This document shows positions 1 to 40,457 of a stretch of 40,457 nt of DNA, in pieces. The notes beneath the pieces are model-generated. The model was not told the origin of the DNA. It saw nothing but the letters and a program-made list of their open reading frames with translations, and ran no database searches. Source of the stretch: a virus; IMG/VR virus record IMGVR_UViG_3300044626_000868, positions 1-40,457 of that record; one strand, written 5' to 3'. Every line of letters starts with the position of its first letter. The stretch's first letter is position 1. The translations under genes were made by a program, and so were the position numbers.

Positions 1-61
1 GGTTACTATACTCATACGAAAGCGGTCGGAAGCCGTTGTTCAGTTGCAGTAATACAAGATT

Positions 62-449: not shown

Positions 450-698
450 ATGTACCCGATGCGCTACGTAACGTCACAAGCCGATTTAACACCCAATGAG
501 CGGGAAGTCTATGGCTACCTATGCAAACAAGGCTTTGTGACGTTACAGCGCATTGTGGAGGCCACAGGGCTAACAAAACAGGATGCTATGAAAGCCCTTG
601 AGGGGTTGAATGGCCAAAACTTTATCCTTAACGAACAGGGCAAGGTATCACTAAACGTACACGCCAAGCAGGTGTTGGGGTTTTATGCTAACAAGTAA
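450..698 (+). CDS. Small winged-helix-like DNA-binding protein (82 aa)
   Basis: Residues about 13-60 (LTPNEREVYGYLCKQGFVTL, then an IVEATGLTKQDAMKALEGL helix pair) have the spacing of a winged helix-turn-helix, followed by a short beta-wing. It could be a transcription regulator or a replication accessory protein. The gene overlaps the primase-helicase start at 685 by 14 bp, so the two are translationally coupled. An in-frame ATG at 459 is an alternative start. The fold is inferred from pattern only. Confidence 0.55.
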   Translation: MYPMRYVTSQADLTPNEREVYGYLCKQGFVTLQRIVEATGLTKQDAMKALEGLNGQNFILNEQGKVSLNVHAKQVLGFYANK

Positions 699-2955
699 CA
701 AACGGCTTGAATCAATGGTTGATGCTATGGCTAAGCTAATGCCAGCAATAAACCGTGACATACTGTATGTGATGGTGTTACACCAAGTTGGAGGCCAGTT
801 GTGTCGTTGTCACGTTAAGGTTGAAGCCCCTGATGCGGAGACCTTCCCCAACTTTTACTCCTTAGTGTTTAGCCGTATGGGTGGGGGTAAAGATAGGGCT
901 TATGACAAGGTAGAGAGTTATTTCTTTGCTAAGGCGAACAAGTACCTTGATGAGCAGGAAAAGCAGGCTTACTTGACTTTACAGGGCAAGGTAAAGGAAG
1001 AGGCTTTAAAGACATACCCCGATGTTGAGAACGAGACGCAACCAAGAGGGCGTAGTTTAGCAGCCCAGTTTAGGCAAAAGTATATTGAGGAGCGGATGCC
1101 AAGGCAGTTGCATGGGGTGTTGAGCCACGCAACAGCAGAGGGGATAGCAGCGGATAAACAGGCCATAAAAGACCACGGCATAGGGTGTGTTAGGCTAGTG
1201 GATAGTGAGCTAGGGGACACCCTTTGCAACATGAAAGAGCCTGAAAGGTTGTTGTTGAAGTACCTGAAAGAGGCTTGGGACAAGGGAGACAACAAGGGTA
1301 AAAGTATTAAAGCTGATAGGTTTAGCAAGCAGGTTAGTGGCGTGCCTTGCAACTATATGGCCTTTACAACCCTTAGTAATATTATTGATAGCAAAAGGGC
1401 AGTAAGCGAGTTGTTATCCTTGTTAAAGGGCGGATGGGCTAGGCGTAGCATGATTGTTTATGACAAGCGCATTAGCGAGTACATTGCCCCAACAGAGAGA
1501 TGGGCTATAGAATACCATGCCAAAGAAGTAGCAGAGGTTGAGGCTTTAGCAAATGAGGCACAGGTGTTTTTTGAGAGCTTGGCCATACGCTATAACCCTA
1601 GGGGTAAGTCTAGCGGGTGTACTCTTAAGTATGATTACGAGGCTAACATAGCGAGGCTGACGTACTCCAACCAAGTTTACAACGATGCGAGGGCTATTGT
1701 AGAGCGGGTGGGGTTTGATACAAACGAGAGTAGTGCCTTGGCCTCCCTTGGTTGGCAGGCGTTTAGGGTTGCAGGCATCATGGCAGCATTGGATGAGTCG
1801 GATGTTGTAACTACTGCCCACTACAACGATGCAAGGTTGGTTTGTGAGCGTTACTTTAGGCAGGGGGTTGAGCTTGAGCGGGTGCTAAGGAATGAAAAGC
1901 ATGTGGCTGATAACCCCTTGAACAGTGTGTTTACCCAGTTATTAGAGGGAGTTGTTTACAAAAAAACAGAGCTACGCCACGCTTTAGGCGGAAGCAAAAA
2001 CACCAGCGACAAGTTTAATGAGCAGGTTAAGATGCTTGAGGTTATGGCAGATGAAGCCAACTTAATCTTTGTGCAGGAGCCATCAAAGGGCAACGGCGCA
2101 TACAATTACAGCATCATGCCAAAAGTACACAGCGAGACTGTACCAGTCGCTATAAGCATATCAGACGACATGACCAAGGATTACCTTTGGTGGCCATTAG
2201 AGGAGGAGGTTTCTCTACAGTACACGGTAGAGACGGCTACCAAACACAACTACTCCCCCAGTCAGTTCAAAGACGGTTACAGAAAGGCCGACAACTGGCT
2301 AGGTGGTAACACGATGCTGGTGTTTGACGTAGACGACGGCACAACATTAGAGCAGGCACAGAGCATGTTCATTGACACCTGTTGCGCTCTGTTGCCCACT
2401 AAAAACCACCAAGTGGCTAAGGATGGGCAACCACCAAGGGATAGATTTAGGGTGTTCTTGCCTATGGTTGAGCCGATTAACTTTACCGATGCAGAGCGTT
2501 TTAAGCGGGTAATGCGTAACGTGGCAGGGGCGTTTAAGCTGACCTTTGACAAAGCCACGGTAGACCCTAGCAGGTTCTACTTCCCCAGCCCCCCTGAGGC
2601 GTTAGAAAAGGTATGGTATAGCCTCCACAATGGCAACTATGTAGACTGGCGAGACTTTGACCATGAGGAGATGAGCAAAGAGCAGACGGCTATCGTGGTT
2701 AGGAAGCACAACAGCACCAAGACCTTTAGGCTAGGCGATGATAAGGACTTTGTGGCCAAGTGTGCCAACAAGTTTATGGCTAACCATTATAGGCAGGGCA
2801 ACCGCAACAACGCCTTGTTTAGGGCATTAAGTTGGCTAAGGGATGTAGGCTTTAGTGAGCATGAGGCTAGCCAAGTGTTAAGTGAAAGTGTAAGTAGTGA
2901 CCCTTTGCCGAGGGATGAAGAAAGGAAGGTATATCGGCAGGTTTATAAAAAGTAG
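685..2955 (+). CDS. Primase-helicase: DUF3987-like domain fused to AEP primase and PriCT (756 aa)
   Basis: Replication initiator/primase candidate. Residues about 1-450 resemble the DUF3987 helicase-like family: a degenerate Walker A (SRMGGGKD, 63-70, lacking the usual Ser/Thr), a Walker B-like VRLVDSELG (169-177) and an arginine-finger-like GGWARR (249-254). Residues about 520-690 look like an archaeo-eukaryotic primase, with a metal-binding D548-x-D550 in VFDVDDG, then RDRFRVFLP and DPSRFYFPSP. The end (about 695-756, RNNALFRALSWL...DEERKVYRQVY) fits the helical PriCT domain. The usual order in phage and plasmid proteins is AEP, PriCT, then helicase; here it is reversed. No polymerase gene is visible, so the host polymerase or primer-extension activity of this protein must copy the genome. 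Family assignments are from motif recall, not a search. Confidence 0.75.
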   Translation: MLTSNKRLESMVDAMAKLMPAINRDILYVMVLHQVGGQLCRCHVKVEAPDAETFPNFYSLVFSRMGGGKDRAYDKVESYFFAKANKYLDEQEKQAYLTLQGKVKEEALKTYPDVENETQPRGRSLAAQFRQKYIEERMPRQLHGVLSHATAEGIAADKQAIKDHGIGCVRLVDSELGDTLCNMKEPERLLLKYLKEAWDKGDNKGKSIKADRFSKQVSGVPCNYMAFTTLSNIIDSKRAVSELLSLLKGGWARRSMIVYDKRISEYIAPTERWAIEYHAKEVAEVEALANEAQVFFESLAIRYNPRGKSSGCTLKYDYEANIARLTYSNQVYNDARAIVERVGFDTNESSALASLGWQAFRVAGIMAALDESDVVTTAHYNDARLVCERYFRQGVELERVLRNEKHVADNPLNSVFTQLLEGVVYKKTELRHALGGSKNTSDKFNEQVKMLEVMADEANLIFVQEPSKGNGAYNYSIMPKVHSETVPVAISISDDMTKDYLWWPLEEEVSLQYTVETATKHNYSPSQFKDGYRKADNWLGGNTMLVFDVDDGTTLEQAQSMFIDTCCALLPTKNHQVAKDGQPPRDRFRVFLPMVEPINFTDAERFKRVMRNVAGAFKLTFDKATVDPSRFYFPSPPEALEKVWYSLHNGNYVDWRDFDHEEMSKEQTAIVVRKHNSTKTFRLGDDKDFVAKCANKFMANHYRQGNRNNALFRALSWLRDVGFSEHEASQVLSESVSSDPLPRDEERKVYRQVYKK

Positions 2956-2981
2956 TACAGTTGAAACAAAGGTTAAACAAA

Positions 2982-3644
2982 ATGGCACTTTTAAGTTATG
3001 ACGAGTCTAAAACATTTGCTATCCCTGACCCAAACACCTATAAAGCAAGATGTGTAAGGGTTGTTGAGATTGGAAAGCAAAAGACAACTTATGCAGGTGT
3101 TGAGAAAGAGAAGCCTCAAGTTATTATTCAGTGGGAGTTATTCGGAGCGAAAGGGGCAGAAGAAAACCCTTTCTTAATATCAAAATGGTATGGCTTTAAC
3201 CTTGCACCTAAGTCAACCCTTAGGATTCATTTAAAGTCATGGAGAGGCAGAGACTTTACAGACGAGGAGCTTGCTGGCTTTTCTTTGGGAAAGATACTAG
3301 GCGCAAACTGTACCCTTACCCTTGTGCATGAGCAAAAAGGTGAGTACACCAACGCCGTTATCGCTGCTATTACCCCAGTTGACCAAGAGCTACTACCAAG
3401 GGTAAAGGCGTTTAAGCAGACCACCGAGTTACTTCATTTTGAGCTTGACAAGGCTGGTGAGATTGGCTTTGAGACCAATTACAACCTATTGCCTGAATGG
3501 ATGAAAAAGCAGGTACACAAAAGCAAAGAATGGCCTGACGTAATGCGTAAGATGCACGGCAATGGCCAACAGGCTCCACAAGCTCAACAATGGCCAGCTC
3601 CCACAGAGTTGGACGAGGATGAGCTAGCGGTAATGCCCTTCTAG
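2982..3644 (+). CDS. Putative single-stranded DNA-binding protein (220 aa)
   Basis: The N-terminal 130 residues are beta-rich with the pattern of a phage OB-fold replication protein (YKARCVRVVEIG, VIIQWELF, LGANCTLTLVHE, YTNAVIAAITPV). The C-terminus is low-complexity, Gln/Pro-rich and ends in an acidic tail (ELDEDELAVMPF), as in many SSBs, where such a tail recruits partners. It lies between the primase-helicase and the YqaJ nuclease, the expected place for an SSB. The ATG at 2982 with AAAGG upstream is preferred over a TTG at 2961. The assignment rests on context and composition. Confidence 0.6.
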   Translation: MALLSYDESKTFAIPDPNTYKARCVRVVEIGKQKTTYAGVEKEKPQVIIQWELFGAKGAEENPFLISKWYGFNLAPKSTLRIHLKSWRGRDFTDEELAGFSLGKILGANCTLTLVHEQKGEYTNAVIAAITPVDQELLPRVKAFKQTTELLHFELDKAGEIGFETNYNLLPEWMKKQVHKSKEWPDVMRKMHGNGQQAPQAQQWPAPTELDEDELAVMPF

Positions 3645-4547: not shown

Positions 4548-4756
4548 ACACCGACATTGAAGCCTGTGTTGACCGTGATTGCACACTGAACACCCTCTGC
4601 CACCGCTACCAAGTGGGGCTAAGGCAGACGATATTCCACGTTGGCCAGTGGCGCATGAAAGAGGGCGGGTGTGATGGCTTTAAGGAGCTACCCCCTGCCA
4701 CCGATTACAGCAATGCGCCTGTTACCCGTAGTTTTATGAACAAAGGAAAGGTTTAG
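4544..4756 (+). CDS. Hypothetical Cys/His-containing protein (70 aa)
   Basis: Starts in an ATGA overlap with the previous gene. The N-terminus carries C8, C13 and C19 plus nearby histidines (DRDCTLNTLCHRYQ), and C44 follows in EGGCDGF, so metal binding is possible but unproven. No family recognised. Confidence 0.5.
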   Translation: MNTDIEACVDRDCTLNTLCHRYQVGLRQTIFHVGQWRMKEGGCDGFKELPPATDYSNAPVTRSFMNKGKV

Positions 4757-6195: not shown

Positions 6196-6697
6196 AGGCT
6201 TTACCTTCCCCCACAAACCTTTACCCGCCGTGCGGACTACTGGCAAGATGTTATGGACAAAGCCAGCGCAGAACTACGCAGGGTATAAACAAGCTCTAGC
6301 CAAGGCGTTAGCAGAGGCTTACCCTGAACTGGTAATACCCCTTTGCCCCCCCACTACCACTAAGAAGGCTGACCCGACTGGATGGGAGGCGAGAAAAGGG
6401 TGGGATAGCGAGTTCAAGTATCAGGGCTATTACTTGTATGTTGACTTTAGCAACCCTAACCACATTAGCGACATTGACAACCTTGAGAAGGCGGTCATGG
6501 ATGCTTTACAGTTAGCCCGTATTGTCCCAAACGATTGCCAAATACTAACAGGCTGGCCAGCTAAGTTTAAGCTGGGTAAGCCTGAAACCGTTATAACCTT
6601 TACCGACCTGCCTGCTGACGAGATGCTTTGGAGGAGAGCAAGGGAGCAGGCTAACCAGTTGTTTTTAAACCTAATTGGAGGAGGCCACGATGCCTAA
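6188..6697 (+). CDS. RusA-like Holliday junction resolvase (169 aa)
   Basis: Expected to cut four-way junctions or branched DNA before packaging. The RusA signature is clear: D95-x-D97-N98 with K101 and D105 (SDIDNLEKAVMDAL), then N115-D116 (VPNDCQI). The acidic residues would bind Mg2+. Somewhat longer than classic RusA (about 120 aa) because of an insertion around residues 45-80. It overlaps the upstream membrane gene by 8 bp and fits functionally with the YqaJ nuclease. Confidence 0.85.
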   Translation: MIKGFTFPHKPLPAVRTTGKMLWTKPAQNYAGYKQALAKALAEAYPELVIPLCPPTTTKKADPTGWEARKGWDSEFKYQGYYLYVDFSNPNHISDIDNLEKAVMDALQLARIVPNDCQILTGWPAKFKLGKPETVITFTDLPADEMLWRRAREQANQLFLNLIGGGHDA

Positions 6698-8221: not shown

Positions 8222-8437
8222 ATGCCTAAACCAACACCTACATTACGCACTATTATTGAAGAAATTGGGCTAACCCAAAAGGAGCTTGGAGACTTAATAG
8301 GCGTTTCATCCACTACCGTATGGCGTTGGTATGAAGGCGAGGCTTACCCAAGGCCAGCTAGAAAAAAGCAACTTATGGCATTGGCCAAGGCTTATGGTGT
8401 ATCAGAAAAAATGAGTACCGCCTTACTTGCTTTTTAA
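8222..8437 (+). CDS. XRE/Cro-family HTH regulator (71 aa)
   Basis: Small DNA-binding regulator made almost only of a helix-turn-helix: LTQKELGDLIGVSSTTVWRW (residues 17-36) is a textbook XRE HTH with a Gln/Leu first helix and a Ser/Thr/Trp recognition helix. It starts right after promoter P2 with AAAGGA as ribosome site and is followed at once by an intrinsic terminator, so it forms its own transcription unit. Autoregulation, and control of the matching P1 promoter, is inference from the shared sequence. No integrase is visible, so this is not clearly a lysogeny repressor. Confidence 0.85.
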   Translation: MPKPTPTLRTIIEEIGLTQKELGDLIGVSSTTVWRWYEGEAYPRPARKKQLMALAKAYGVSEKMSTALLAF

Positions 8438-15803: not shown

Positions 15804-16862
15804 TTATACCTGTAGTATAAACCCTAAACAGGCGTGGTGGGTATTGTTAGCCGTAACTTTATACTGATACGTCCTAGCCGTATCTAGCAACACCCAAGCA
15901 CTTGTTTGAATATCGGTTGAAGCAGCAGCGGTAAGCACCTGCTCCTGTGATAACAACTTAGGCTTAACCACACTGTTTGCCGACCTTGCCGACCATGCGA
16001 TTAAGGCTTGGGTAGCTCCTACTGGTACAAGCGTCAAGGCTACATCCGTGTTACTTGTGGCTGCACCGTTATCAAGGCAGATGTTAGCCCCTGTTGAGGT
16101 TGAGCTTGTTATACGATATTCGGGAGCATTGTACAGGCAAGTGAGCGTGTTTGTCCCAAACCCTTGATACACAAAGGGCATTAACGCCGTACTACTTGGC
16201 ATAGTACGCACAGGGCAAGGAAGACGTGCAAACTTAGTGTAGCCACTGGGTAACGTAGGGGTTGTGGCGTTAGTTGACAGTAAAGCCGATACGCCACTAT
16301 CCCCTTGTATCAGGTAAGGCCAGTACCAAGTGTTGCTAGCTACCGTGCCACTGTCTAACCCCAATGCCCCTAAAGAGCCTGTGCTAATGGTGCGGTTGCT
16401 TGGCACTTCAATTACTGTCGTGCCTGTTGAATCCAGCATACGAGTAAAGGGGAATACTCTTATCGTGGTAGTGGTTAAAAACTGTGGAGCTGACCCCATA
16501 GGGTACACGTTAAGGTTTTGCGCTTGTGCCTGCTCAATAGGGGTTAAGAATGAGTAAAAATCTGTACCGTTGTTGCTAAATTGCCAGCGGTCTAGTGACT
16601 CATTGTATTTTAGCCACACATCAGGCAATGAGCCACGGTTTACGGCAATGCCACCATCTACCGTAGGCGAGCCTGTCAATGCGTAGTTAAGGGTTAGTGT
16701 TGCGCTTTCATTTACCCGCCCTAACAGCAAGGCATCCACAACCGCCTTTAGGGCATTACTATTGCCAGCAAGCACGTTAAGGGCTGCCACAACAGGAGTA
16801 GCGTTGTTAGCTTTACCGTTTACGATTTTGCTTGTATCAGGGGTTGAAACGGATACTGGCAT
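15804..16862 (-). CDS. Tail appendage protein (352 aa)
   Basis: Beta-rich, Thr/Ser/Asn-rich virion-like protein with N-terminal helices (ATPVVAALNVLAGNSNALKA) then strands such as VWLKYNESLDRWQFSNNG, a motif common in phage fibre/baseplate proteins. It abuts the 1391-aa tail protein by one base. Probably a tail-tip or fibre-connector protein. No exact family recognised. Confidence 0.6.
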   Translation of the reverse strand: MPVSVSTPDTSKIVNGKANNATPVVAALNVLAGNSNALKAVVDALLLGRVNESATLTLNYALTGSPTVDGGIAVNRGSLPDVWLKYNESLDRWQFSNNGTDFYSFLTPIEQAQAQNLNVYPMGSAPQFLTTTTIRVFPFTRMLDSTGTTVIEVPSNRTISTGSLGALGLDSGTVASNTWYWPYLIQGDSGVSALLSTNATTPTLPSGYTKFARLPCPVRTMPSSTALMPFVYQGFGTNTLTCLYNAPEYRITSSTSTGANICLDNGAATSNTDVALTLVPVGATQALIAWSARSANSVVKPKLLSQEQVLTAAASTDIQTSAWVLLDTARTYQYKVTANNTHHACLGFILQV

Positions 16863-38027: not shown

Positions 38028-38273
38028 ATGCCCCAATCACCCGATGCCCGCCGTGCCTACCACCGAGAAGCCCAAGCTAAACGCCGTTTAAGGTTAAGAG
38101 AGGAAGGTAAGCTACCCCCTAAGCCAACCCCACTATGGCACGATGACCACCCAGCCCAAGTAACCGCCGTTGTGCCTGTCGTGGTTAAGGCCTACCTAGC
38201 CACGCCCGAGGGGAGGCAAGCCGTGTTGGCGTTGGCTTTGGCTAGCGAGAGCCAAGGGGGTAACTATCAATGA
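38028..38273 (+). CDS. Hypothetical basic protein (81 aa)
   Basis: The ATG at 38,028 follows AAGGA. The N-terminal half is a basic helix (ARRAYHREAQAKRRLRLREE) that could bind nucleic acid; the C-terminal half is Ala/Val-rich helical. Overlaps the next gene by ATGA. No family recognised. Confidence 0.55.
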   Translation: MPQSPDARRAYHREAQAKRRLRLREEGKLPPKPTPLWHDDHPAQVTAVVPVVVKAYLATPEGRQAVLALALASESQGGNYQ

Positions 38274-38482: not shown

Positions 38483-38818
38483 ATGAGCAAACGGCATGAG
38501 TTCGGCCATCGGGTAAAGCAACGCCGTGAAACCTTAGGGCTTGGCCAAAAAGAGCTGGCTTATGCCTTGCGAGTTGACCAAGGGAAGATTAGCTTACTAG
38601 AACAAGGTGCTAGACGGGTGGATGCAGTGGAGGAGCTACCCGCCTTAGCCCTAGTGTTGCAGTGTAGCGTTGACTACCTTCTGGGGTGTCAATCTAGCGA
38701 GGGTGGAGCGGTTGAAAGGCTTGTTAAGGATACTCACCCCCACCTTGAGTTATCCCCCCTTGAGTTACAACGGTTGACGGCTATTTTAAACGCCGTAGTA
38801 GTTGCTTATATTAACTAG
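38483..38818 (+). CDS. XRE-family HTH regulator (111 aa)
   Basis: The N-terminal 65 residues are a full XRE domain (RVKQRRETLGLGQKELAYAL, then VDQGKISLLEQGARRV), ending in the typical VDYLLG. The C-terminal 45 residues may dimerise. It is followed by a strong terminator. Larger than the left XRE protein; the two may oppose each other at the divergent or duplicated promoters. It lies 3 bp after the Arg-rich gene. Confidence 0.85.
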   Translation: MSKRHEFGHRVKQRRETLGLGQKELAYALRVDQGKISLLEQGARRVDAVEELPALALVLQCSVDYLLGCQSSEGGAVERLVKDTHPHLELSPLELQRLTAILNAVVVAYIN

Positions 38819-38836: not shown

Positions 38837-38864
38837 CCCCCTTGAGTTAGCTTGAGGGGGTTTT
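38837..38864 (+). terminator. Intrinsic terminator after the right XRE gene
   Basis: CCCCCTTGAG pairs with CTTGAGGGGG across a TTAG loop (two G-T wobbles), followed by TTTT. A good rho-independent terminator; the HNH gene downstream therefore needs read-through or another promoter. Confidence 0.8.
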
Positions 38865-38928
38865 GTCATCACCACGCCATAAGCCCACTGTAGCCTCATG
38901 GAGAGGCCTTAACCCTTGGGGGGTAGTT

Positions 38929-39312
38929 ATGATACCTATAGCAGCGTTTGGAGGGGTCTACGGCCAAGTAAAAGCCTTAGGCAAAGGCGGGGGGTTTAAC
39001 TGTTACGATTGCGGGGTTAGCCTCAACAAGAACAACTCAACCGTTGACCACTTGATACCAGCTAGCCAGCGGGGGGCAGGAGGGCGGAAGGAGGAGGGCA
39101 ACAACACCAATGCCCTTGGTTTGTTATGCCGGGCTTGCAACATAGCCAAGGCTGATACCCCTATGATGCAGTACCTGCAGGACAACCCTCATGCCGTTGA
39201 GGGCTTAGCCAAGCAGGGGGAGCAGATGAGGGGTAAGGGGGTTGACCACATTGCCCAGCAGGCCAGTGAGATAGCGGATAAAGGGCGCAAGGCTAACCGC
39301 TGGCTAGCATAA
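38929..39312 (+). CDS. HNH endonuclease (127 aa)
   Basis: Zinc-containing HNH nuclease: C25-x2-C28, the D40-H41 pair (VDHLIPAS), N61 (NNTNALGLL), then C67-x2-C70-N71 and K74. The start at 38,929 follows GGGGGG 4 nt upstream; an upstream extension to 38,863 lies within the terminator. Phage HNH enzymes of this size aid DNA packaging or act as homing enzymes. It lies next to the origin-like region and opposite the minus-strand terminators. Confidence 0.75.
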   Translation: MIPIAAFGGVYGQVKALGKGGGFNCYDCGVSLNKNNSTVDHLIPASQRGAGGRKEEGNNTNALGLLCRACNIAKADTPMMQYLQDNPHAVEGLAKQGEQMRGKGVDHIAQQASEIADKGRKANRWLA

Positions 39313-39346
39313 CAAAACCCCCCGCCAGGTTGCTTGGCGAGGGGGT
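39313..39346 (-). terminator. Minus-strand terminator Ta
   Basis: On the minus strand ACCCCC-TC-GCCA pairs with TGGC-GGGGGT-type sequence (one bulge), followed by TTTTG. It begins at the HNH stop codon and would stop minus-strand transcripts from running antisense through HNH. Confidence 0.6.
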
Positions 39347-39393
39347 AAAGGAATGTTGTACCCGTGTGGAACGTGTAGTGTCATCACACCCCC

Positions 39394-39421
39394 AGCATAG
39401 CAATTTGTGGCTGGCTGTCAA
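39394..39421 (-). promoter_or_regulatory. Minus-strand promoter with consensus boxes
   Basis: TTGACA (39,421-39,416), a 16-bp spacer and TATGCT (39,399-39,394). It reads toward the terminator at 39,313-39,346, giving an expected transcript of about 75 nt. Confidence 0.65.
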
Positions 39422-39430
39422 TCCTAACAA

Positions 39431-39472
39431 AAACACCCCGCAAGATGCGCTTGTATCAGAGGCGTGCGGGGT
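39431..39472 (-). terminator. Minus-strand terminator Tb
   Basis: ACCCCGCA (39,435-39,442) pairs with TGCGGGGT (39,465-39,472) over a 22-nt loop; on the minus strand TGTTTTTG follows. Confidence 0.6.
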
Positions 39473-39484
39473 ATGTTGCTTGAA

Positions 39485-39496
39485 AGCATACCACAA
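39485..39496 (-). promoter_or_regulatory. Minus-strand extended -10 motif, copy 1
   Basis: TTGTGGTATGCT on the minus strand, close to the two exact copies TTGTGGTATACT at 39,627-39,638 and 40,153-40,164. It lies directly downstream of terminator Tc. Confidence 0.5.
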
Positions 39497-39499
39497 AAC

Positions 39500-39536
39500 C
39501 AAAACCCCCTCAACCGTTGACCGTGGCTAAGGGGGT
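39500..39536 (-). terminator. Minus-strand terminator Tc
   Basis: An imperfect stem of ACCCCCT and AACC-type arms (39,504-39,515) with GGCTAAGGGGGT (39,525-39,536), followed on the minus strand by TTTTGG. Confidence 0.55.
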
Positions 39537-39565
39537 AAGGCGTTACCGTTTACTAATTAAACCAA

Positions 39566-39585
39566 CAGGAGTCGTGACGCTCCTG
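39566..39585. other. Hairpin CAGGAG/CTCCTG
   Basis: A perfect 6-bp stem with an 8-nt loop, inside the interval transcribed from the 39,627-39,638 promoter to terminator Tc. On the minus strand it would be the main structure of a possible small RNA of about 125 nt. Confidence 0.45.
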
Positions 39586-39626
39586 CTTGTCGCATAAGGA
39601 GACTTGGCAAAACTAGACGCAAAGCT

Positions 39627-39638
39627 AGTATACCACAA
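39627..39638 (-). promoter_or_regulatory. Minus-strand extended -10 motif, copy 2
   Basis: TTGTGGTATACT on the minus strand has an extended -10 (TGGTATACT). It directly follows terminator Td; no clear -35 box. Confidence 0.5.
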
Positions 39639-39639
39639 A

Positions 39640-39668
39640 CAAAAAGCCCCCGCCATACGGTCGGGGGT
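39640..39668 (-). terminator. Minus-strand terminator Td
   Basis: CCCCCG (39,647-39,652) pairs with CGGGGG (39,662-39,667); on the minus strand CTTTTTGT follows. A typical intrinsic terminator. Confidence 0.65.
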
Positions 39669-39775
39669 GTTCTCTGTAGGAGGGAGTTAGCGAGAGAAAA
39701 GTTAGAGATGAACAAGGCCAGTATAGCACAGCTGTCAATCGGTGTTATACCTACGCCGTCGCTGTGAGAGCTTTG

Positions 39776-40111
39776 TCGTGTCGATAAAACGGCTAAAAAC
39801 GTACACGATAGCTTTGCGGGCGACATTGATGTCGGTCACAAAATAGCCGATTAACCCGCTCAAACGGTGCTAAAGCTGGCCAGTTTAGCCACTTTGCCGA
39901 TATGGGGATTCCCATTTCGGCCGACCATAACCACTAGTTAGGGTCATTTTTTGCGAGCGTCCGCAAAAAACAGTTATACGGGGCGTGTTGTAAAACCATT
40001 TTGCTGGCATCGGCAATATGGTCGCCGTGGCTATTGCCATAATGGAAACAACCACCGAGGGATACTCGGTAGTTGCTCGTTCGGTTTACTACCAACAAGG
40101 ACAAGTTGTTG
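39776..40111. other. Gene-free run of consecutive inverted repeats
   Basis: Seven inverted repeats in about 340 bp: TCGTGT/ACACGA (39,774-39,808 region), CGACAT-TG-ATGTCG (39,821-39,834), GCTAAA...TTTAGC around CTGGCCAG (39,869-39,889), an 11-bp stem with one mismatch (39,896-39,921), TTTTTTGCG/CGCAAAAAA (39,947-39,970), a 10-bp stem with one mismatch (39,995-40,022), CAAC-ACCGAG/CTCGGT-GTTG (40,049-40,075) and CAACAA/TTGTTG (40,093-40,111). No open frame here looks coding. It may be a structured RNA transcribed from the minus-strand motif at 40,153, or part of the replication/packaging region. Confidence 0.6.
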
Positions 40112-40152
40112 ATAGCCAAGCCGTAAAACCAACAGGGTCACAACATAGGCCA

Positions 40153-40164
40153 AGTATACCACAA
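40153..40164 (-). promoter_or_regulatory. Minus-strand extended -10 motif, copy 3
   Basis: TTGTGGTATACT on the minus strand, identical to the copy at 39,627-39,638. It points into the hairpin run at 39,776-40,111. Confidence 0.45.
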
Positions 40165-40187
40165 CCCCTTTGCCGTGGGGTGGGGGT

Positions 40188-40416
40188 AACTTCTTAACTT
40201 CTAAAGGGAGTTAAGCAGGGAGTTATTATAAACCCAGTGATAGCTTGATATTTAACCCTAACTCCCTAACTTTTCATCTCTCTTATAAAAAAAAATATAA
40301 TATAATATATTTATTTATATAAGAGGCTTGGAAGTTAGGGAGTTAAGGTGTTTCTTGTTGATATGACTAGGTTTATAATAACTCCCGCCTTAACTCCCTT
40401 TAGAAGTTAGGAAGTT
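40188..40416. other. Candidate replication origin: 229-bp palindrome with AT core and iterons
   Basis: Outer arms of 47 bp (40,188-40,234 and 40,370-40,416) are inverted repeats with three mismatches. Inner arms (40,256-40,272 and 40,332-40,348) match at 16 of 17 positions, and a third pair CTCTTATA/TATAAGAG (40,280-40,287/40,318-40,325) flanks a core of 40 bp of pure A/T (40,283-40,322). All pairs share one centre near 40,302. Six GGGAGTTA and five GAAGTTA-like motifs lie in the arms in both orientations, like iterons bound by an initiator next to a DNA-unwinding element. Origin function is inference; the primase-helicase is the likely partner. Confidence 0.7.
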
Positions 40417-40457
40417 AAGAGCTACAGTGGTTGCTTGGTTCATAAGTATATACTTTG

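Follow-up and report, generated by a model that had tools for sequence, protein, structure and literature searches.

Near the right end of the window, the whole 40,457-bp virus record analysed here (IMG/VR class linear, i.e. without detected end repeats), we identified an imperfect palindrome of 231 bp (40187-40417, centre 40302) that is very likely the replication origin of an uncultivated phage. Our data show how it is built, that it exceeds chance, that its layout recurs, with another iteron word, next to homologous primases, and that its core coincides with the melting minimum in all three contigs compared; origin function is inferred, there being no replication, binding or read-depth data. 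We consider it very probable because the closest relatives keep the layout, with different words, beside the same replication gene, a comparative case that rests on three contigs and on computation only.

The palindrome sits in a non-coding stretch running from the end of an HNH nuclease gene (39312), the last plus-strand gene on the right side of the window, to the right contig end, 40 bp beyond the palindrome. Two pairs of inverted repeats share its centre (Table 1): outer arms of 56 nt, which are 91% complementary, and inner arms of 18 nt (40255-40272 and 40332-40349), which are 94% complementary. The 12-nt spacers between outer and inner arms are of equal length and show no complementarity. 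The arms are not identical, differing at several bases, and the strand folds into a single long hairpin (z −14 as DNA). The iteron, a 7-mer TAACTYY (reverse RRAGTTA), is present in 12 copies within these 231 bp as against 25 in the remaining 40.2 kb, where no 300-bp stretch contains more than 2. Denoting TAACTYY by f and its reverse by r, with start-to-start distances in between, the array reads f8f12r12r, f8f, core, r8r, f12f12r8r. All 12 iteron sites have an exact mirror partner, a number that reached 7 at most in 5000 random placements. At offsets 15-124 from the centre, 75 of 110 mirror positions are paired, compared with maxima of 53 in 100 dinucleotide shuffles of the whole window and 50 in 1000 shuffles of 39313-40457. 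The mirror array and its core are thus far beyond chance. An earlier note on this stretch, made from the sequence alone, had placed the element at 40188-40416, which held to within 1 bp; its common centre at about 40,302, its 40 bp of uninterrupted A/T, its motif repeated in both directions (12 RRAGTTA/TAACTYY sites, all mirrored) and its view that such nesting is unlikely by chance (no shuffle comes close) were likewise confirmed. Its count of three nested pairs was not, as only the 56-nt outer and 18-nt inner arms were found.

Table 1. Location of the palindrome, its iterons and associated features in the window.
Feature	Position	Strand	Description
-10-like hexamer	7..12	+	TATACT; weak; ~162 bp right of palindrome centre if ends join
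82-aa winged-helix ORF	450..698	+	sub-threshold TrmB / Phage_rep_O matches; possible accessory factor
756-aa primase	685..2955	+	phrog_2135, N4 gp43-like; proposed initiator helicase-primase
Predicted winged-helix codons of the primase (residues 405-482)	1897..2130	+	proposed iteron reader; no binding data
227-aa protein after primase	2961..3644	+	homologue in G046 (31%); no annotated family
Two extra RRAGTTA copies	39683..39704	+	at 39683 and 39698; outside palindrome, within small-RNA array
Outer left iteron block	40187..40225		TAACTTC 40187, TAACTTC 40195, GGAGTTA 40207, GGAGTTA 40219; spacing 8-12-12
Outer left inverted-repeat arm	40187..40242		56 nt
Inner left arm	40255..40272		two direct iterons, TAACTCC 40259, TAACTTT 40267; spacing 8
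A/T core	40283..40322		40 bp pure A/T; putative DNA unwinding element
Inner right arm	40331..40349		GAAGTTA 40331, GGAGTTA 40339; mirrors inner left arm
Outer right arm	40362..40417		TAACTCC 40379, TAACTCC 40391, GAAGTTA 40403, GAAGTTA 40411; spacing 12-12-8; exact mirror of left block

Relatives were sought by scanning viral_contigs with an alignment of the 756-aa primase and ten N4-like primases. Two full-length relatives stood much closer than the rest: L153 (contig 3300042992_001079, 19,240 bp, record G045) with 32% identity to the 756-aa primase and L154 (contig 3300032283_000637, 29,587 bp, record G046) with 33%. Immediately upstream of the primase gene, both carry nested inverted repeats with an A/T-rich core between them, centred at 5660.5 in L153 (primase start 5989; array 328 bp upstream) and at 5677.5 in L154 (primase start 5956; array 278 bp upstream). 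The iteron word is TAACTYY in the window, CAAAAA[AC] in L153 and AAAAATRY in L154, those of the two relatives being A-rich and of low complexity. The L154 word is absent from the L153 array, the L153 word occurs once in the L154 array, and the word of the window is found in neither. Block order and orientation (ffrr-ff-core-rr-ffrr) are nevertheless common to all three, and the 8/12-bp spacings are mostly kept: L153 reads f8f15r12r, f8f8f, core, r9r8r, f12f15r, and L154 reads f20f24r, f8f(7f), core, r8r8r, f12f12r, with brackets marking the lone L153-type copy. Thirteen of the 25 copies of the L153 word in G045 fall inside the 300 bp of the array (next densest 300 bp, 1), as do 11 of the 22 copies of the L154 word in G046 (next densest, 3). 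Mirror spacing is nearly exact in L153, with 10 of 13 sites exact and 12 of 13 within 3 bp. L154 keeps the block order and orientation, yet its distances deviate from an exact mirror: 6 of 12 sites fall within 3 bp, which is not above random, and the inverted-repeat score is just above that of shuffles (45 versus a maximum of 44).

No further relatives that close were returned by a second, more specific primase scan of viral_contigs, and none at all by single-protein primase scans or exact arm DNA patterns. At the other loci with a primase, no upstream palindrome of this strength was seen. Among plasmids, we found no relative of the window's primase and one weak relative of that of L154. Two contigs near-identical to the window (3300035187_002392 and 3300035681_001383) do not extend as far as the palindrome. 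Several candidates were discarded. The palindromes of L169 and L201 looked like coding or composition effects, and in the N4-like L233 and L234 the primase follows directly on another gene, too closely for an array to fit. Of two prokaryote genome matches, that in Bifidobacterium is a short hairpin and that in Prevotella an A/T-rich stretch; both look like chance. The one match of a degenerate inner-arm pattern, L152, is an A/T-rich repeat region of an unrelated 36-kb contig and is not homologous; this region (6400-6620) combines A/T-rich repeats of TTATTAACTC with an inverted pair of 23 nt, lies 2.6 kb from an ORF of 989 aa that may encode a replication helicase, and could be another iteron origin.

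The least stable 40 bp of the contig is the core of the array in the window, in L153 and in L154. In the window, the stability of the core is −0.837 per step against a contig mean of −1.397 (sd 0.089), the next worst segment being at −1.052. The cumulative G minus C minimum of the window lies at 38,250, 2 kb off the palindrome centre; in the relatives it lies no more than 0.6 kb from the palindrome, at 4,750 in G045 (palindrome 4,168) and at 16,500 in G046 (palindrome 15,918). Such skew is compatible with an origin at the palindrome, yet we give it little weight because it is confounded with gene strand.

Comparison of L153 with L154 indicates how the array is inherited. The left flanks of their palindromes share 86-96% nucleotide identity (97% aa for the LHH nuclease), and the regions beyond the primase 94-96% (91% aa for the ORF), whereas identity falls to 54-66% in the palindrome and to 53% aa in the primase. 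Array and primase thus diverge together inside otherwise near-identical neighbourhoods, a pattern that probably reflects inheritance of origin and initiator as one cassette, although this is inferred from sequence alone. The primase is the only protein that blastp detected in all three contigs, and their large terminases belong to different Pfam families or lack recognisable homology. Conversely, forty-odd viral contigs related to the window by terminase or head protein have no homologous primase, and those fetched whole have no comparable palindrome, so that the array follows the primase and not the virion module. In the window, this module (12157-36744) is mosaic, with a head protein closest to that of Bacillus phage Page (35%), an SU10-like portal and a Terminase_3; the major head protein, portal, and large and small terminases are all present, and its 352-, 448-, 589- and 1199-aa proteins have no PHROG match. 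A gene for an HNH/LHH-superfamily nuclease lies beside the palindrome in all three contigs (window 38863-39312; L153 5021-5425; L154 5009-5350).

The 756-aa primase matches phrog_2135 over residues 3-753 (E 2e-55), a full-length match that places it in the N4-type primase family. It is predicted to comprise an MCM-like AAA+ domain (1-404), a winged helix (405-482), an archaeo-eukaryotic primase (AEP) domain (483-665) with conserved residues D548, D550, H575 and R589, and a PriCT-like domain (684-756). Pfam detected PriCT_1 in the primase of a relative (E 2e-8) and DUF3987 with PriCT_1 among members of the family, but neither DUF927 nor a SaPI Rep family in the members scanned. An AlphaFold2 model of the protein, built with 33 sequences (mean pLDDT 81; 84 for residues 1-486), contains the AAA+ domain, a winged helix of three helices and two strands, the primase domain and a helical C-terminal PriCT-like domain. 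G66, G68 and K69 of the AAA+ domain are invariant (Walker A-like GGGK). MCM subunits were the top Foldseek matches in the PDB (E 1e-4 to 3e-4, probability 1.0, 10-14% identity); we use the term MCM-like rather than MCM because TM scores were just 0.25-0.51. Between the window and its relatives, the winged helix and the preceding helical domain are the least conserved (14-20%, versus 49-51% for the primase domain), which could fit a fast-changing specificity module and is not proof by itself. We regard the 756-aa protein as the likelier initiator when compared with the 82-aa ORF, for which no homologue was found in the L153 and L154 contigs; that it binds the iterons is inferred, without binding data. 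The 227-aa protein encoded after the primase is, judging by its position, probably a single-stranded DNA-binding protein. We found no obvious ORF for a DNA polymerase in the contig, where no plus-strand ORF other than the primase exceeds 300 aa and the large ORFs of the minus strand encode structural proteins or have no family match, which makes the host polymerase the likely partner.

In the window, primase gene and palindrome centre are 0.84 kb apart provided that the contig ends join. The relatives carry a -10-like TATTAT at 161 bp (L154) and 178 bp (L153) from the centre, distances similar to that of the weak hexamer at the left end of the window, which raises the possibility that the ends of the window are adjacent. 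This evidence is weak because no convincing -35 was found near the -10-like hexamers of the right-hand operon. Overall, the contig ends are probably neighbours, although the junction is inferred, and the origin would therefore lie just upstream of the replication operon.

The surroundings of the palindromes also contain putative small RNAs. Six of the nine extended -10 sites (TGnTATRCT) found on the minus strand contig-wide lie at 40161, 39728, 39635, 39493, 39402 and 39314, most of them directly after a hairpin terminator with a C-run and a G-run, so that the minus strand of 39313-40161 resembles a series of small RNA genes in tandem, directed away from the palindrome. Within it, the 422 nt of 39729-40150 (minus strand) fold at −155 kcal/mol versus −120 kcal/mol for shuffles (z −6.5) into many hairpins closed by a long end-to-end helix, possibly a new structured phage RNA; no Rfam family matched this segment at threshold. 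A sub-threshold abiF RNA match (27.3 bits, gathering 37) at 39435-39471, minus strand, may be just a terminator hairpin. Between palindrome and primase, L153 (5838-5970) and L154 (5839-5970) share a conserved leader with a terminator-like hairpin of a C-run and a G-run, CACCCCCTCC...GAGGGGGTG, which could be a small RNA or an attenuator of the primase gene.

The most serious alternative is that the element is a transcriptional control region only, its iterons being operators for divergent transcription and its A/T core a promoter region, with no role in replication. The array is upstream of the replication operon, minus-strand extended -10 sites start at 40161 on its left with a weak -10 on its right, and repressor-like HTH genes are present at 8222-8437 and 38483-38818. 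However, at least 12 mirrored sites arranged as two nested blocks are more than an operator usually has, the core coincides with the melting minimum in each of the three contigs, and the array is exchanged as a cassette with the primase and not with a regulator. We consider this explanation unlikely without excluding it; autoregulation might also coexist with origin function. That the element is a partition or centromere-like iteron site, or a cos/pac packaging site, finds some support in the iteron arrays that also occur at plasmid centromeres and in the proximity of the contig end. This is very improbable, given that neither ParA nor ParB turned up among the proteins scanned (a scan that did not include all small ORFs), that the terminase genes are 4 kb away, and that terminases differ in the three phages, the array remaining with the primase.

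A telomere or hairpin genome end, which the earlier note had offered as an alternative, or a telomere-resolution site like N15 telRL, would be compatible with the one long hairpin that the whole element could form and with the contig end 40 bp to its right. Yet unique, non-complementary sequence flanks the array on both sides in all three contigs, L153 and L154 continue straight through into the primase gene, and the spacers within the arms lack complementarity. Among the large proteins scanned, some of which have no family match at all, none matched a protelomerase, and this reading is accordingly disfavoured, with very little probability left to it. A fold-back mobile element (MITE), a repeat family near the primase or an assembly or amplification chimera could account for terminal inverted repeats beginning with TA close to a contig end. 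Such explanations are very strongly disfavoured: a degenerate outer-arm pattern had no match in viral_contigs and, in 84,980 prokaryote genomes, matched only two unrelated places, near-identical copies elsewhere being largely absent; the arms diverge at several bases, unlike those of a fold-back chimera; and two other phages have the same position and layout with different sequence.

The origin reading is thus the one we favour, and it agrees with that of the earlier note, bidirectionality and origin activity remaining inferred. The note had asked whether the arms co-vary among related phages; they do, since two relatives keep the symmetric array at the same place with other words. Its GC-skew check lends weak support only, and of its two candidate binders the 756-aa protein is favoured over the 82-aa winged-helix protein. 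As we picture the mechanism, mirrored iterons, two per inner arm and four per outer arm, would flank the A/T unwinding element, and the 756-aa fused protein would bind them, probably through its winged helix. Two oligomers would load facing each other because the halves of the array are mirror images, an arrangement also put forward for SaPI and SV40 origins (PMC9894130); they would melt the A/T core and unwind outward to give two forks, both primed by the primase domain and extended by the host polymerase. A bolder reading, which we advance tentatively and hold to be slightly more apt to fail than to stand, is that the arrays form a new origin class in phages: each would be a doubly nested iteron mirror of fixed grammar (ffrr-ff-core-rr-ffrr, 8/12-bp steps), read by one protein that unites an MCM-like self-loading helicase with a winged-helix iteron reader and an AEP, and of which two copies would load head to head, like MCM in archaea and eukaryotes, the cassette being swapped between otherwise different phages and the word evolving in concert with the winged helix. 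With the layout fixed and the words varying, nature has provided a specificity-swap experiment on winged helix and iterons, with L153 and L154 types to set against each other. Compact, orthogonal origin/initiator pairs are a possible use.

Several known origins share parts of this organization. Iteron plasmid origins such as those of RK2 and P1, and lambda ori, also have iterons next to an A/T unwinding element (PMC5043065). In all of these, however, the repeats are direct and confined to one flank of the A/T region instead of being mirrored around it (PMC5043065 for RK2). In HSV-1 oriS, inverted boxes for the origin-binding protein flank an AT spacer with hairpin-forming potential (PMC12543377), but that origin belongs to a eukaryotic virus, has three boxes versus twelve and uses an unrelated initiator, the SF2 helicase UL9; no UL9-type origin-binding protein family was seen in the proteins scanned. 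The mirror-oriented sites of the SV40 core origin direct two head-to-head hexamers of T antigen (PMC9894130), which has a different origin-binding domain. The gp43 primase of phage N4 (Schitoviridae) belongs to the same family as the 756-aa protein (phrog_2135, E 2e-55, full length), although N4-like phages are of ~70 kb and carry a DNA polymerase gene of their own (PMC7650795). A comparable upstream palindrome was absent from all N4-like primase loci that we fetched, and we found no described origin for the N4-type primase family in the literature searched.

The closest parallel is with the origins of PICIs and SaPIs (SaPIbov1, EcCICFT073). Every PICI origin has an AT-rich region with an iteron set on each side (PMC6092414), and in SaPI origins repeats in opposite orientations recruit two head-to-head hexamers (PMC9894130). 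Two iteron sets around an AT-rich melting region, and the opposite orientation of the repeats, are thus common to these origins and to our array, and the cognate Rep of PICIs and SaPIs is a self-loading helicase, one branch of which is related to the MCM-like Cch (PMC6092414, PMC9894130, PMC7581432). We have not filed the array as a PICI origin because of its 5′ position, its other initiator family and the capsid and terminase genes of its carrier. Their ori lies immediately 3′ of rep, whereas the arrays of L153 and L154, and that of the window if its ends join, are on the 5′ side of the primase. Those elements are satellites that rely on a helper phage for capsid and packaging genes; the phage studied here encodes its own capsid and terminase and does not qualify as one. 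The candidate initiator here is an AAA+/winged-helix/AEP fusion of the N4-primase family, which corresponds neither to SaPI Rep/Cch nor to Primase_Cterm, and the array is a doubly nested mirror with four plus two sites per half. By analogy, the array may work as PICI and SaPI origins do while differing from them in initiator and position, and it would represent a more elaborate mirror form of origin, here in phages and beside N4-type primases.
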